Both the position numbers and the translations under genes were made by a program. The notes below the pieces were generated by a model. That model was not told the DNA's origin, ran no database searches, and saw nothing but the letters and a program-made list of their open reading frames with translations. DNA of 64,000 nt from Saccharofermentans sp. (GTDB taxonomy: Bacteria > Bacillota > Clostridia > Saccharofermentanales > Saccharofermentanaceae), in NCBI GenBank assembly GCA_016292215.1, contig JAEFBB010000008.1, forward strand, positions 1-64,000. The letters are read 5' to 3'. Each line of letters begins with the position of its first letter. Within the stretch, counting starts at the first letter, position 1. Positions 33,060 through 48,477 of the stretch are shown here, one piece after another.

Positions 33060-33090
33060 ATGTTTATAACTCTGTCCATAGTGTTCAACT

Positions 33091-33150
33091 TGTCGTTTTT
33101 GTCGCATTTTGTCGGTTTTTCAGCCTGATATTGAGACGAAAACCGACAAA
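33091..33150. promoter_or_regulatory. Phased GTCG tract and inverted repeat between engB and comEC
   Basis: On the plus strand three units start with GTCG: TGTCGTTTTT at 33091-33100, GTCGCATTTT at 33101-33110 and GTCGGTTTTT at 33111-33120, one helical turn apart. The hexamer GATATT begins 12 bases after the last GTCG (33127). A perfect 12-bp inverted repeat (33108-33119 with 33139-33150) gives another GTCG unit on the minus strand, with AATATC 11 bases further. The layout suggests a divergent promoter with activator or alternative sigma recognition. Nearly the same tract precedes the TadE-like cluster (44928-44957). Confidence 0.6.
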
Positions 33151-33171
33151 CACGTTCCTTAGAATTTTAAC

Positions 33172-35574
33172 ATGAAGAATATTTATGGCAAAACACACCA
33201 TAACACTTGGTTTTCGGCGCTTGGAGAGAAGCTGCTTCTGAGACTTGAGGAACTGTCTTATGCAGCTGATTCTTTCAAAAGGAGACCCTGTCTGATTCCT
33301 GCGGCTATGCTCATTCTTTGCTGTGTCCTGTGTTACCGGTTTGAATCGTTTGTGCCGGCTGTGGTTATGGCCGTGACTACTCTCGGTGCATGCTTATTCA
33401 TTAGCTCCCGAAGGTCCCGTAACATAACGCTTTCAGCTGGACAACAAGGAAAATATATCCTCTTGTTAGCTGGCTTTCTGCTCAGCCTGATCATTGTCTA
33501 TAACGGGATGTATATTCATTCAAGATTATCCGCCTGTTTAACCCCTCAAAACGGCGCGTTCAGCTGCACTGTTACAGAAGTTTCTTATGACCTTGCAGGC
33601 GGCATAGACATGACCGTCAGGCTCGAAGGCGGTGTATATGCAAAAGCCGCGTTTTATAAAGAGATTCCGCAGAATATCAGGGCGGGTGATAAGGTAGTTT
33701 TGCACGGCAAGCTCAAGGAGCCCGAGAGCGCAGGCAATCCGGGAGAATTCGATTACAAAGGGTATCTGAAGAAAAAGGGGATACTTTACGTGATCTCCTG
33801 CGACAGTTATGAACTGGTCGGCAGAGCATCATTTCCGCAAAATGTTACAGGGCTTCTCCGCAAGTTTTTCTTTGAGCTCAGAAAAGGCGCTGTTGGCGCA
33901 GTGTCAGGCACATTTAGTGAAGAGGAGAGGGCTTTGGCTGCGGCAGTTTGCACCGGTGACAGATCTCTTATAAGTGACGGCACTAAGCGTGATTTTAAGT
34001 TGTCCTGCTGTTCGCATCTTCTGGCGGTCTCGGGAACCCATTTTGCAGGCTTTCTGGCAGGGCTCCCCATGATCCTGGATACCCTCAAAGTCAAAAGAAA
34101 AAAAGCATTTTTCATATATATTGTCTTTGCTCTTTTGATAGGCTGCCTTACGGGCTGGAGCGATTCGGTTACCAGGGCAGCAATTATGAGCATCTGCATA
34201 TTTGCGATGCGGGACTGGGTGTCTGCTCTGAGCGTGGCTTCGCTGGTAATGGTTACTGCAGATCCGTTCTGTGCGATGTCATCAGGCTTCCGGATGAGCT
34301 TTTGCGCCGTGATCGCGATCAAGATGTATAGCGATAAGATCTCGAGGGTCCTTAAAAAGCTGCATTCAGGCGATTTTTTGGCAGGAATAATCAGTCCTAC
34401 GATAGCTGCAAGCCTTGGCATGATCCCTTTCTGGGAAGATATCTCCATGAAGATCGATCTTGAACACCTGGGCATTCAGACCGCGGGATCATTTATTGCC
34501 CAGACTGCCTGCGCTTTCTTTGTGCCGTGTGTGGTTTTATGTCTACTTATGCCGTTTGGGGCACAATTTTTGTCTTCACCGCTATGTCTGTGCCTGAATG
34601 TGCTTCAAAAACTGGTGTCTTTTGGCGGCAGTATTACTGAAAGAAACATATCTGCTATCCATCTTTCACAAGCATTTTTGGCCGTTACGGCTGTTGTGGT
34701 TTTTCTTTTGCTGATCCCGCCAAGTATCCTGAAGAGGATATTTCTTAAGCCGGCCGCGCTGCTTCTGGCTGTAATGACCGGATTCGAAGTGTTTTCGATA
34801 CTTGATAAGCCGTCAGCGAAGGTCGTTTTTGCTGATGTCGGACAGGGCGACTGCTGCCTGATAATGACAGAGGATTTGACATGTCTCATAGATGCAGGAA
34901 CATACGATGAAGGCGCTGAAACAGTATGCAATATCCTTGATTATTACGGGATATATCAGGTCGATATCTGCTTAATGAGCCACTGGGATGTGGATCACGC
35001 AGGCGGGATAGCGGCCCTGTATGACCGGGGCAGGACAAAGCAGATTATTACTTCATATGTACCCGGGCCCGGCGCTGAGGACAAGGATGTGCGGGAATTC
35101 TTTGAAGCTGTGGGGTTTGATGACGGAAAAAGATCAGGATACCTCTCAAGTATTGACTCTGTGTGCTCCGGAGACCTGATATTTCTGTCTGAAACGGTTT
35201 ATCTGGACATTCTTTATCCTGCATCAGGCTCCGGAGGCGGCAACGAAGAGAGCCTGGTGGCCATGCTTCATATAGAAGGTGAGGAGAGTGCCTGCATTTT
35301 GTTTACTGGAGATATCGGAATAAAAACAGAAGAAAAAATACTTAAAAGCGGCATGAATATTGACTGCGACATCTTAAAAGTCGCCCATCACGGGTCGAAA
35401 TATTCATCTTCAGAAGATTTTATAGAGGCATGCTCTCCGGAAGCAGCCGTAATATCTGTAGGAAAGAATAATTTCTACGGCCATCCTACGCCCGAAACGC
35501 TCGAAAGGCTTGATTCATACGGCTGCGAGGTCTTTAGGACCGACAGGGAAGGGGCAGTGATACTGAATTATTGA
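33172..35574 (+). CDS. comEC: DNA-uptake channel protein ComEC/Rec2
   Basis: An 800-residue protein with all three ComEC parts: N-terminal membrane helices and OB-like DUF4131 domain (to about 230), the Competence domain with many transmembrane helices (about 240-540, including 'HLLAVSGTHF'), and a C-terminal metallo-beta-lactamase domain with 'FADVGQGDCCLI', 'SHWDVDHAGG' (His604, Asp606, Asp608, His609) and 'VAHHGSKYSS'. ComEC passes single-stranded DNA through the membrane in transformation; the C-domain may degrade the other strand. The gene looks intact. The ATG at 33172 has no clear ribosome site, so a leaderless or internal start is possible. Confidence 0.93.
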   Translation: MKNIYGKTHHNTWFSALGEKLLLRLEELSYAADSFKRRPCLIPAAMLILCCVLCYRFESFVPAVVMAVTTLGACLFISSRRSRNITLSAGQQGKYILLLAGFLLSLIIVYNGMYIHSRLSACLTPQNGAFSCTVTEVSYDLAGGIDMTVRLEGGVYAKAAFYKEIPQNIRAGDKVVLHGKLKEPESAGNPGEFDYKGYLKKKGILYVISCDSYELVGRASFPQNVTGLLRKFFFELRKGAVGAVSGTFSEEERALAAAVCTGDRSLISDGTKRDFKLSCCSHLLAVSGTHFAGFLAGLPMILDTLKVKRKKAFFIYIVFALLIGCLTGWSDSVTRAAIMSICIFAMRDWVSALSVASLVMVTADPFCAMSSGFRMSFCAVIAIKMYSDKISRVLKKLHSGDFLAGIISPTIAASLGMIPFWEDISMKIDLEHLGIQTAGSFIAQTACAFFVPCVVLCLLMPFGAQFLSSPLCLCLNVLQKLVSFGGSITERNISAIHLSQAFLAVTAVVVFLLLIPPSILKRIFLKPAALLLAVMTGFEVFSILDKPSAKVVFADVGQGDCCLIMTEDLTCLIDAGTYDEGAETVCNILDYYGIYQVDICLMSHWDVDHAGGIAALYDRGRTKQIITSYVPGPGAEDKDVREFFEAVGFDDGKRSGYLSSIDSVCSGDLIFLSETVYLDILYPASGSGGGNEESLVAMLHIEGEESACILFTGDIGIKTEEKILKSGMNIDCDILKVAHHGSKYSSSEDFIEACSPEAAVISVGKNNFYGHPTPETLERLDSYGCEVFRTDREGAVILNY

Positions 35575-44807: not shown

Positions 44808-44927
44808 TCAAGGTTAATCGTAAATATAAGTATATTATGAAATTTCTGGCCTTTTAAAGCCGCTAAAATCCAATGAAATAAGCGCTTCCGGGGTTTTCTG
44901 ACACTGTTTGTGCCGGGCGGTTTACTC

Positions 44928-44969
44928 TGTCGTTTTTGTCGGATTTTGTCGAACTTTGTATGCAATATC
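44928..44969 (+). promoter_or_regulatory. Phased GTCG tract before the TadE-like cluster
   Basis: TGTCGTTTTT (44928-44937), GTCGGATTTT (44938-44947) and GTCGAACTTT (44948-44957) match the tract before comEC with one difference over the first 24 bases. AATATC starts 12 bases after the last GTCG (44964), the same distance as in the comEC tract. The rest of the 44808-45011 gap is AT-rich with nothing else recognised. Confidence 0.6.
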
Positions 44970-45011
44970 AAAGACCTCAGCAATGTATTCTTCAGAAAAA
45001 AGGAGGTCTTT

Positions 45012-45314
45012 ATGTCTACTTTGGAATCAGCTTTAGCATTTTCTTTGATCATCATCGTTCTCGTCTTCATGATCACTGCTCCCGAGTCTATTGCTTTAGA
45101 AAGCTTTGACCGGGCAAAAGACGGCGGCAACGAGCTCTATTTCATGGAGCGGGATCAGGAGGTCATGAGCAAGCACTACGTCCATTCAGTTGCTTGTTAT
45201 GACACATCTCCTGAGAGATTCTGCACGTTTCTTACTGGTCTTTCGGATAACTTCAGGCTGCTCTACGGGTCAATGTATGACCTGACAAAGGAGGCGACGG
45301 AAGATGAGGATTAA
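45012..45314 (+). CDS. Small pseudopilin-like membrane protein
   Basis: The start at 45012 follows AAAGGAGGT and gives a 100-residue protein with an N-terminal hydrophobic helix (about residues 6-24, 'SALAFSLIIIVLVFMIT') and a Glu/Asp-rich remainder. The position of the helix, and Glu at position 5, resemble TadE/TadF-type minor pilins, though similarity is weak. It is first of three coupled genes. The GTCG tract lies about 55-85 bases upstream. Confidence 0.65.
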   Translation: MSTLESALAFSLIIIVLVFMITAPESIALESFDRAKDGGNELYFMERDQEVMSKHYVHSVACYDTSPERFCTFLTGLSDNFRLLYGSMYDLTKEATEDED

Positions 45315-46668
45315 CAAGCACAGAAGAAACAGGCATGGGGCCTCTTCGATCTTTCTTGCGATCATCTTGTCGGCGGTGATCCTGGTCGAATGCACATTCC
45401 TTGCTTTTGTCTGGAATCTTGACTATGCGCTCAGTGTCAACACAGCGTTAAAGACTGAGATAGACACGGTGCTTGCAGACTATAACAGACAGCTTTTTGA
45501 TGTTTACGGAGTATATGCTTTCTCGCTCGAAGGCATAGATAACGAATGCTTCAACAAAGCCCTGGAGATCAATGGTCTTACTGCCCAGTCGACGCTTTAT
45601 GTTTCAGGCAGGCACAAGGTGACGACAGAAGATCTCAGGAAGGCGATCTCTTCATATTACCTGTACAGAAGCACGGGCCTGGTTGCCAAGACTCTGGTTA
45701 ACAGCTTTTCTGATATGTTCCTTCAGCTCGACAACAGCGGAATGTTGAAAAAGATCGGCCAGTTTATGGACAGCCCTGCGGCGGATTATGTTTCCAAGAT
45801 CATTAAGGGCAGTGAGACTGCTGAACAGTGGATAAACAAGGCAGGCGATGTGCTGAATATCGATGAATTGCTTGAAGAAGCCGCGAATATCGATTCCCTG
45901 AGGAAGGATTATGCGGATTCGATAAGGCAGTCAGGCATGGGAATAGACGTTGACGTGGCAAACTGGGAACAGTTCCTTGACTGTATGTCCGGCTTTGAGT
46001 CCTTCGGGAATACTTTATCGGATGCTTCGCTTGGCACAAGCACAAAGTTTATGACATCGCATTACTGCGCATATAACTTCGACTGCATCATGCCGCCTAA
46101 GGACGATGTATCGATCAACGGCACGCCTTTTGATGCTATTCACGGGACCAGGAAAGCCGACTGCGAATACCTGATCGCAGGGGATAATGATTTCTTTACC
46201 ATTTTCGGGCTGCACTTGGATCTTATCTATATCCTGACAGCAGGCAATATGCTTACTGATTTTGCGAATGAGACTTACAGGACCACGATAAACGCCATAT
46301 CCGAGGTCATCTCACTGATCATCGCGGCTGTAAGCGAAGGAACGGTGCAGATCGATTACAGGATAATAGCAGTCGGACTTACTTTCTACGTCGGTCTGGT
46401 CCAGTCGATGAAGAATTATTATGATCTTACGAAAGGTGAGCGGATCGTCTTTTTCAAATACGAGGATATGGATCTTCTGCAGTTCAGTTACAGGGATTTT
46501 CTGTTTTTGTTCTGTCTCTTTACGCCCGAAGATGACCTCCTGAAAAGAAGCCTTCATGTCCTTAAGCGTGATTACGGCACTCTCTATAAGGGCGTAAGGC
46601 TTGAAGCGGATTTCCGGGGTGAGACTTATTACGTCGAAAAGTCTTACCAGCTGTATGAATCTTCGTGA
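45304..46668 (+). CDS. DUF5702-like Tad-associated membrane protein
   Basis: A 454-residue protein with a basic N-terminus, a hydrophobic helix (about residues 13-35), then 'VLADYNRQLFDVYGVYAFSLE', which matches the DUF5702 proteins found in clostridial Tad pilus loci. Further hydrophobic segments near 340-370 may be membrane-associated. The role is unknown; it is probably part of an extracytoplasmic pilus-like assembly. It overlaps the previous gene by 11 bases. Confidence 0.7.
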   Translation: MRINKHRRNRHGASSIFLAIILSAVILVECTFLAFVWNLDYALSVNTALKTEIDTVLADYNRQLFDVYGVYAFSLEGIDNECFNKALEINGLTAQSTLYVSGRHKVTTEDLRKAISSYYLYRSTGLVAKTLVNSFSDMFLQLDNSGMLKKIGQFMDSPAADYVSKIIKGSETAEQWINKAGDVLNIDELLEEAANIDSLRKDYADSIRQSGMGIDVDVANWEQFLDCMSGFESFGNTLSDASLGTSTKFMTSHYCAYNFDCIMPPKDDVSINGTPFDAIHGTRKADCEYLIAGDNDFFTIFGLHLDLIYILTAGNMLTDFANETYRTTINAISEVISLIIAAVSEGTVQIDYRIIAVGLTFYVGLVQSMKNYYDLTKGERIVFFKYEDMDLLQFSYRDFLFLFCLFTPEDDLLKRSLHVLKRDYGTLYKGVRLEADFRGETYYVEKSYQLYESS

Positions 46669-46679
46669 GGTGATATCTA

Positions 46680-47707
46680 TGAGAAGACATAACAAGCGCG
46701 GCCAGGTAACGATAGAAGCCGCAATTGCCTTTACAATAACGCTCATATTCCTCGCAACTGTAATAAGCAGCCTTCAGTATTACAGGACAGATATCCTCAT
46801 GAGGCGTGCTTGTGAACAGACATGCGAAAAGATGGCCATTCTTTATCCTTTGTCCGTTCCTGCATCTGATGCTTTGTCGACAATGCTGAATGCCTTTCCC
46901 GATATGGGGATCGGGGCCACAAAAGGTGCAGATATCGTCTCCAAGGTGACTTCAGTCGCTTTAGGTGCTGACAGAGCCACGGGAAACAACATCAAAGAAC
47001 TGATCCTGCAGGGGCTGTTTGCCAAGACAATGGAAGAGCAGATACGAAGTGCTTATATCGAGAGGAACGGCGGTTCTGACTTTTTCGCGCCCGATGAGAT
47101 CAGGGTGTATTTTGAGATAAGCGAGACGCACCATGTGATCGAGGTGACAACCGAATATACGGTAGTTACGCTCGCCGGAGTTAAGACCAGGAGCATCTAT
47201 TCGGTAATCCCGCTCTACGGTGATCCGGTCCTTATGCTTAACGGCGCAGACTCTGAGACATCGGATGAAAAAGACGAGAATAAGGACAGTATCTGGTCAT
47301 TGAGTAATTTTGCCAGGGGAGAAGCCTTCAGGGAAAGGTACGGAGCAAACCTTCCAAAGACGTTTCCGGTCATAGATGCTGTCAACGACGGGGATATTAC
47401 TGCCATAAGGAGCATAGATCTGACCTCTCCTTACTACCAGGATGTCTCAAATATCGAGAAAGAGATAAAAGAAGATATCCTCGCTTTGAGCGGATTTGAG
47501 CCCCAGTCGGCAAATATCAACGGTACGGTCTATTCCGTAGATTACATAGATTCCAGGTATCTTACTGTGATAATCCCCGAAAATTCAGGGGAAATAGGCA
47601 AAGCTGTCATCGATGAACTTAAGGGCTATGCCTTCGTTAAAGGTGTTATACTTGACGTCAAAGAGTGCGAGACCTCCAATAAATACCAGGCAGGGGATCA
47701 GGCATAA
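46680..47707 (+). CDS. TadE-like pseudopilin/assembly protein
   Basis: I start at the ATG at 46680, with GAGGTGAT upstream. The N-terminus 'RRHNKRGQVTIEAAIAFTITLIFL' has the TadE/TadF pattern: basic residues, a Gly cut-like position, a Glu five residues later in 'TIEAA', and a hydrophobic helix. The rest (about 60-342) is an extracellular domain with no recognised motif. TadE-like proteins are minor pilins of Tad (type IVc) pili. No TadA ATPase, TadB/TadC platform or Flp pilin is found in the window. Confidence 0.75.
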
Positions 47708-48051: not shown

Positions 48052-48477
48052 ATGGACGATATTAAGGACAATCATTTTACACAGAGCGAATTGGAGGAAT
48101 TAACCGATCTTTATAACGCCATGCTGACCATGGAAGACAGCTCTGAGATGCATAAATTCTTTGTGGATCTCTGTTCGATAAATGAGCTGCACTCATTGCT
48201 TCATCGTTGGCAGATCGTCAGAAGGATCGAGCAGGGCAAGAGCTACGAAGAGATAATCAAGGAACTCTCACCCAAGGAAGCGCCTGAGAGCGATACGGTA
48301 AAAACAGAAAAGAAAACAACCGGCAGAGCACGTGGCAAGGCCAGATCATCAACAAAGGTCAGTTCCACGACTATTTCGAGAGTCAAGAAGTGCCTGGTCA
48401 ATCCGGAAGGCGGATACAGAACAGCACTTAACAGACTCGAGGAAACTTCCGGAGAGAATAAAGAAGACAAACAGTGA
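48052..48477 (+). CDS. TrpR/YerC-like DNA-binding protein with a basic insertion
   Basis: The protein has the YerC/YecD pattern of TrpR-fold regulators: 'ELEELTDLYNAMLTMED', 'FFVDLCSINELHSLLHRWQIVRRIEQGKSYEEII', then 'SSTTISRVKKCL' and 'GGYRTAL'. In relatives the two halves of the helix-turn-helix are separated by about six residues. Here about 28 extra residues (about 74-102, rich in Lys, Arg, Ser and Thr) lie between them. The target is unknown. It is fifteen bases upstream of secA and may share its transcript. Confidence 0.8.
   Translation: MDDIKDNHFTQSELEELTDLYNAMLTMEDSSEMHKFFVDLCSINELHSLLHRWQIVRRIEQGKSYEEIIKELSPKEAPESDTVKTEKKTTGRARGKARSSTKVSSTTISRVKKCLVNPEGGYRTALNRLEETSGENKEDKQ

Follow-up and report, generated by a model that had tools for sequence, protein, structure and literature searches.

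A tandem TTGTCG operator of a predicted competence regulon and its candidate Spo0A-like activator in Saccharofermentans-like Clostridia

The tract of tandem TTGTCG boxes that precedes comEC in a Saccharofermentans sp. genome is, judged on sequence evidence, close to certainly the operator of a competence regulon. The proposal for this lineage of Saccharofermentans-like Clostridia from rumen and gut is an activator that would bind boxes repeated head to tail, two to four of them on the same helical face, with the last ending about 24 bp upstream of a housekeeping-type -10 and beside the -35 region. This activator would turn on DNA uptake (ComEC, ComEA, and the Tad/Flp pilus with its TadE operon), processing and recombination (DprA, ComM, and RecA), and a set of nuclease-like proteins. 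The most likely candidate is a protein of 171–196 aa whose C-terminal DNA-binding domain is of the Spo0A type and in which no receiver domain can be recognised. Direct control of competence by such a Spo0A-derived activator is given a probability of about 0.75, in the absence of binding, expression, or transformation data. The fuller proposal is favoured with somewhat less assurance. It holds that natural competence in a genus with no detectable full-length Spo0A is under the direct control of a receiver-less Spo0A descendant acting as master activator, that uptake proceeds through a Tad pilus, and that the operator of the regulon changed at least three times with its gene content kept, twice together with the same helix residue.

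The window, which is the whole 64,000-nucleotide stretch of DNA that was analysed, is contig C72 of a 73-contig, 2.33-Mb genome. An earlier note on this DNA had reported three GTCG units near comEC, and these are present, starting at 33092, 33101, and 33111. The 24 bases at 33091–33114 occur again at 44928–44951 with one change, as it had said. The AT-rich hexamers lie 12 bases downstream where it placed them (GATATT at 33127–33132 and AATATC at 44964–44969), and the two arms of the 12-bp inverted repeat, TTTGTCGGTTTT and AAAACCGACAAA, are exact reverse complements (33108–33119 and 33139–33150). The features of the window are collected in Table 1.

Table 1. Operator arrays, promoter elements, and genes of the predicted regulon within the window.
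Feature	Position	Strand	Basis or remark
comEC operator array, three TTGTCG boxes (33090, 33099, 33109)	33090..33114	+	pattern searches, sequence reading
Inverted box AAAACCGACAAA (reverse complement TTTGTCGGTTTT), just 5' of the -10	33139..33150	-	recurs in comEA and 260-aa promoters
Probable -10 hexamer TAGAAT, 6 nt before the comEC ATG	33160..33165	+	start predicted, not measured
comEC, DNA uptake channel	33172..35574	+	PF03772 E=8e-20; TIGR00361 E=2e-55
TadE-operon operator array, CTGTCG and two TTGTCG	44927..44951	+	pattern search
Degenerate fourth box TTGTAT of the TadE-operon array, same 10-bp register	44956..44961	+	sequence reading
Probable -10 hexamer TATTCT, 40 nt past the first base of the third box	44986..44991	+	
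100-aa small membrane/pilin-like protein, gene 1 of the TadE operon, AAGGAGG in front	45012..45314	+	
454-aa TadE-operon protein, weak DUF5702	45304..46668	+	PF18960 19.1 bits, under cut-off 26
TadE-type pilin, C-terminal endonuclease-fold-like domain	46679..47707	+	orthologue profile matches, alignment A4

In the window alone, a search allowing up to two mismatches returned two matches, both perfect, against 3.35 expected. Since chance alone could account for this count, the argument has to be made from the whole genome and from related genomes. Across the genome, the 25-base pattern with 0–1 mismatch gave four matches and its reversed control two weak ones, and the strict three-box pattern gave eight matches and its reversed control none. 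A two-box search added further loci to the four 25-base matches; the remaining two-box matches fall in coding or unrelated places. The tandem TTGTCG boxes of the arrays in this genome are 9–10 bp apart. Among 59 genomes of the genus, the strict three-box array was found in 45, with no reversed-control match in any of the 59, and it is rare outside the genus. Chance is excluded at the genome and genus scale because the matches exceed the reversed controls at both.

In the genome of the window, arrays precede comEC, comEA, comM-dprA, recA, the tadZ-cpaF-flp operon, and the TadE operon, as well as three paralogues of about 260 aa and a 196-aa unknown gene that is followed by a WYL regulator. The earlier note had inferred a competence-type regulon and had proposed enrichment before genes such as comEA, dprA, and Tad genes as its check. 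The first six of these targets meet that check in this genome, enrichment is also seen across the genus, and the idea of a competence-type regulon gains support from both. The comEA product behind the array carries SLBB and HhH domains, and the dprA that follows comM behind the array matches TIGR00732 above cut-off. The match of comEC to TIGR00361 is 188.3 bits, under the cut-off of 190.05. Uptake and recombination genes (comEA, comEC, dprA, and recA) were thus found under one element both here and in relatives. Out of 78 arrays that were read, 68 precede the same eight gene classes. These arrays came from eleven genomes and were selected for the array itself, without regard to the gene behind it; the exceptions are a few loci of the window's genome, which were added after a first look. 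The other arrays include some before toxin-antitoxin-type genes and unknowns; such genes, HicB among them, stand behind some arrays of G029 and G038 (L070, L075, L077, and L143).

Boxes in register were seen at 37 of the 67 comEA loci that were read, with none among the loci from Lachnospiraceae, Caloramator, and Syntrophomonas. According to the comEA search records, the group falls among MAGs from rumen and gut that carry the labels Saccharofermentans sp., Ruminococcaceae, or Clostridiales, and includes the isolates Ruminococcaceae bacterium AB4001 and YAD3003. One sub-clade (G012, G014, G029, G038, G044, and G057) has comEA without an array. In other families of the order, the comEA promoter of G066 has TGTCGAAAATGTCGAAAAATGTCG. 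Two strict arrays occur in G061 (C1:8434 and C1:1072669; L141 and L142), where they accompany non-competence genes, namely a ParA/Soj-type gene and a methyltransferase-like gene.

The pilus genes of the regulon are those of the tadZ-cpaF-(T2SSF)-Flp operon and the TadE operon. In the genome of the window, the array-led CpaF operon also encodes a T2SSF protein, a Flp1-like pilin, and an FHA protein. DNA uptake by this pilus has not been shown and remains an inference, as does transformability itself. PilB- and PilT-like ATPases belonging to a separate type IV pilus are encoded in the genus as well (G040, G052, G015, and others), and no array that was read stands before their genes. Each genome has several paralogues of the family of about 260 aa, and an array almost always precedes them (L003 1565–2347, L005 676–1464, L030 294–1166, and many relatives). 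It has no Pfam match, and its invariant S..E, D, and E..G positions in alignment A3 suggest a PD-(D/E)XK nuclease fold. A nuclease-like protein with a CdiA_C domain (PF18451) follows the tad operon of the window's genome (L129 6275–6661), and in G003 a TTGTAAC array precedes the gene of a similar protein (L322). The recA gene (L132) apparently has two control regions, an array about 230 nt upstream and an SOS-like site, GAACAAATGTTC, near its start.

The geometry of these promoters was read by aligning unique promoters on the last TTGTCG and measuring from the first base of the last box to the start of the -10. A TATAAT-like -10 fits best at 29–30 nt in 72 of 102 unique promoters and at 40–42 nt in another 12; the distance is 51 nt for comEC and 40 nt for the TadE operon. 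Within the last boxes TGTCG is conserved; it is followed by G in 58 percent of them and by A in 18 percent. Units of the form TTGTCGAAAA occur in several species. Because the -10 ends 6–7 nt before the ATG of comEC, comEA, and the 260-aa genes in the genome of the window, their transcripts are predicted to be leaderless, an inference made without measured starts. The pilus operons have Shine-Dalgarno sequences. Two further suggestions of the earlier note did not hold. The AT-rich hexamers are absent from the other array copies as a conserved feature, and for this lack of conservation they were ruled out as the -10; the conserved downstream element is the TATAAT-like -10. A divergent promoter at comEC had been suspected from the inverted repeat. 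An inverted CCGACAAA box, which lies about 8 nt before the -10 in many promoters, sits inside the forward promoters of comEA and the 260-aa genes, so it provides no evidence for divergent transcription.

The best hypothesis for the reader of the arrays is a protein of 171–196 aa with a Spo0A_C DNA-binding domain, found in nearly every genome of the genus and usually in a single copy. PF08769 matched one protein per genome in 41 of 59 genomes, over its cut-off in 30, and the match is weak (21–38 bits). An 11-row alignment (A1), all of whose 11 members match PF08769, finds the candidate in 56 of 59. In the remaining three genomes (G006, G022, and G044), a true absence was rejected in favour of a probable assembly gap because a neighbouring gene is missing too. 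The only convincing PDB relatives of the candidate are Spo0A DNA-binding domains (1fc3, E=5e-6; 1lq1, E=1e-5), with the ER..R of the recognition helix aligned. These residues, which we take to be equivalent to E213, R214, and R217 of Spo0A, are kept in 47 of 55 genus sequences; in the other eight the glutamate is replaced by V, S, K, or A and both arginines are retained. No receiver domain was detected, since Response_reg matched none of the 11 members at E up to 1, and the PF08769 search of the 59 genomes found no strong full-length Spo0A. At its conserved locus the gene follows ligA, a 5-formyltetrahydrofolate cyclo-ligase-like gene, and a gene for a short membrane protein, and it adjoins an HU gene. 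In several species the regulator gene itself has a conserved element unlike the boxes 110–160 nt upstream, TTGAGACTAGTCTCAA together with a direct GTCTCA (L156).

The 0A box of Spo0A has the core TGTCGAA, with base contacts at G2, C4, and G5 (PMC3485338). The invariant part of the array boxes, TGTCG, corresponds to the first five bases of this core, and to that extent the arrays match tandem 0A boxes. That the Spo0A_C-like protein binds the boxes and activates from them is inferred from the homology of both the domain and its site, from its presence in nearly all genomes of the genus, and from covariation that is only partial. We consider this assignment probable; no binding data exist, and other transcription factors were not surveyed genome-wide. 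Against the pairing, alignment A1 also detects the protein in almost every genome from three further families of the order, in which strict arrays hardly occur.

In nine genomes that lack TTGTCG arrays, the regulon is kept but stands under a different motif. TTGTGAG arrays are confined to G048 and G053, with two stray matches among the other 57 genomes, and precede comEA, comM, tadZ-cpaF, the TadE operon, and the 260-aa genes. TTGTAAC arrays occur in G003, G010, and G033, before comEA, comEC, comM, the TadE operon, the 196-aa unknown gene, and a YraN-type gene. A third element, TTTTCGTAT..TTCGGAG, was derived from the tad promoters of G030, G035, G043, and G050 and then searched genus-wide; these genomes have 7, 7, 8, and 1 copies, respectively, with one stray elsewhere, and the targets are comEC, comM, tad, the TadE operon, the 260-aa genes, and the 196-aa genes. 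In place of the glutamate that aligns with E213 of Spo0A, both TTGTGAG genomes have S and all four TTTTCGTAT..TTCGGAG genomes have V. The TTGTAAC clade keeps the glutamate, and G014 (E to K) and G052 (E to A) retain TTGTCG. The tree requires only three changes of motif and four of residue, two of them coinciding, on long branches. Fisher's test by genome gave p = 8e-5 with relatedness ignored, and an independent-pairs test had too few pairs. Since the changes on the tree are few and the two coinciding ones lie on long branches, this imperfect covariation of residue and motif may be taken as support and not as proof.

If the regulon is real, another factor could still read the arrays, for example the WYL regulator (PF13280, E=9e-5) within the regulon, which would control itself. 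An array precedes the 196-aa unknown gene and the WYL regulator in G000, G003, G010, G033, and G043, which would fit autoregulation. However, its presumed recognition helix, FERKS[IV]YSD, is the same under three different motifs, whereas the Spo0A_C protein changes in two of three switches, and the resemblance of the box to the known 0A box also speaks against it. The WYL regulator was therefore rejected as the preferred reader and is retained as an unlikely rival. A repressor role, in which the same protein or another would keep competence genes off from these operators, is also thought rather improbable. It draws on the last box and the inverted box, which adjoin or overlap the -35 region, and on Spo0A of B. 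subtilis, which represses or activates according to box position (PMC12090719). The arrays lie upstream of the -10 at helical-turn steps (30, 40, and 51 nt) and not over the start site, which is activator-like, although repression at single promoters remains possible.

The earlier note had left its regulator as either an activator or a sigma factor, and only the former has fared well. A tract forming part of an alternative sigma factor promoter, in the style of SigH or ComX in competence, would explain the strong conservation near the -35 region and the fixed distance to the -10. But a multimeric activator working with the housekeeping sigma factor would fit the two to four repeats at 9–10 bp, the extra helical-turn offsets, and the TATAAT-like -10, and the non-housekeeping -10 expected of SigH and ComX promoters is lacking. 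A sigma factor is less likely than an activator, given a -10 of housekeeping type and boxes that differ in number and in helical-turn spacing, and this reading is given very little credence. Chance or repeat-family similarity without regulatory meaning would suit the match count of the window alone; it is already contradicted by genus-wide arrays with zero controls, by conserved targets, and by the same targets under different motifs, and it deserves practically no weight.

Direct activation by a Spo0A-derived protein can be compared with known systems. The likeness to Spo0A and its 0A boxes in Bacillus and Clostridioides lies in the homologous Spo0A_C domain, the TGTCG box core, and boxes beside housekeeping promoters, and by analogy in the role of a stationary-phase master regulator. 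In contrast, the genus protein has 171–196 aa without a recognisable receiver, and late competence genes would be its direct targets. Spo0A of B. subtilis acts on competence upstream, via other regulators. The competence regulons of Bacillota (ComK, ComX/SigX, and SigH) likewise place one cis-element before comEA, comEC, dprA, recA, and pilus genes, but differ in operator sequence, in the probable type of regulator, and in the pilus, which is Tad/Flp in the genus and not ComG. Transformation that depends on a Flp/Tad pilus is known from Micrococcus luteus and Liberibacter (PMC8467076, PMC8513845). There, as proposed here, a Tad/Flp pilus replaces ComG or the type IVa pilus in DNA uptake; those organisms are Actinobacteria and Alphaproteobacteria, whereas in these Clostridia only coregulation is seen and function has not been shown. 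A search of open-licence literature found no paper on competence in Saccharofermentans and none on direct control of late competence genes by Spo0A.

Natural competence of uncultured Clostridia from gut and rumen, and what would induce it, is an open question. The result names a set of genes and a candidate master regulator, provides a promoter code that can be read, and points to cultured isolates of the group (AB4001 and YAD3003). If it is correct, the DNA-binding domain of a sporulation regulator has been reused for competence, a novel mode of control over gene uptake, and a Tad/Flp pilus is coregulated with DNA-uptake genes in Clostridia. It would also provide a natural series in which a factor and its whole regulon shifted specificity together.

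The proteins of the TadE operon in the window are only partly recognised by profiles. The 100-aa pilin-like protein has no match in Pfam or NCBIfam and has orthologues at the same place in relatives, and orthologues of the 454-aa protein stand behind arrays in eight further loci. For the TadE-type pilin, the orthologue L098 matches PF07811 (TadE, E=2e-5) and PF21111 (E=2e-15), and the window copy reaches 21.8 bits with PF21111, under its cut-off. PF21111 is a restriction-endonuclease-like domain of contact-dependent inhibition proteins. The lysine of the S-x-K-S strand is replaced by R in the window fusion; three of five relatives likewise lack it, with R, V, or L in its place (alignment A4). 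An active nuclease is not claimed since this expected active-site lysine is not conserved, and the C-terminal domain may bind DNA without cutting it. A single-sequence structure prediction of the protein was set aside (mean pLDDT 36.7). Directly 3' of the TadE operon and before secA, a TrpR/YerC-like protein is encoded at 48052–48477 (PF01371, E=4e-17).
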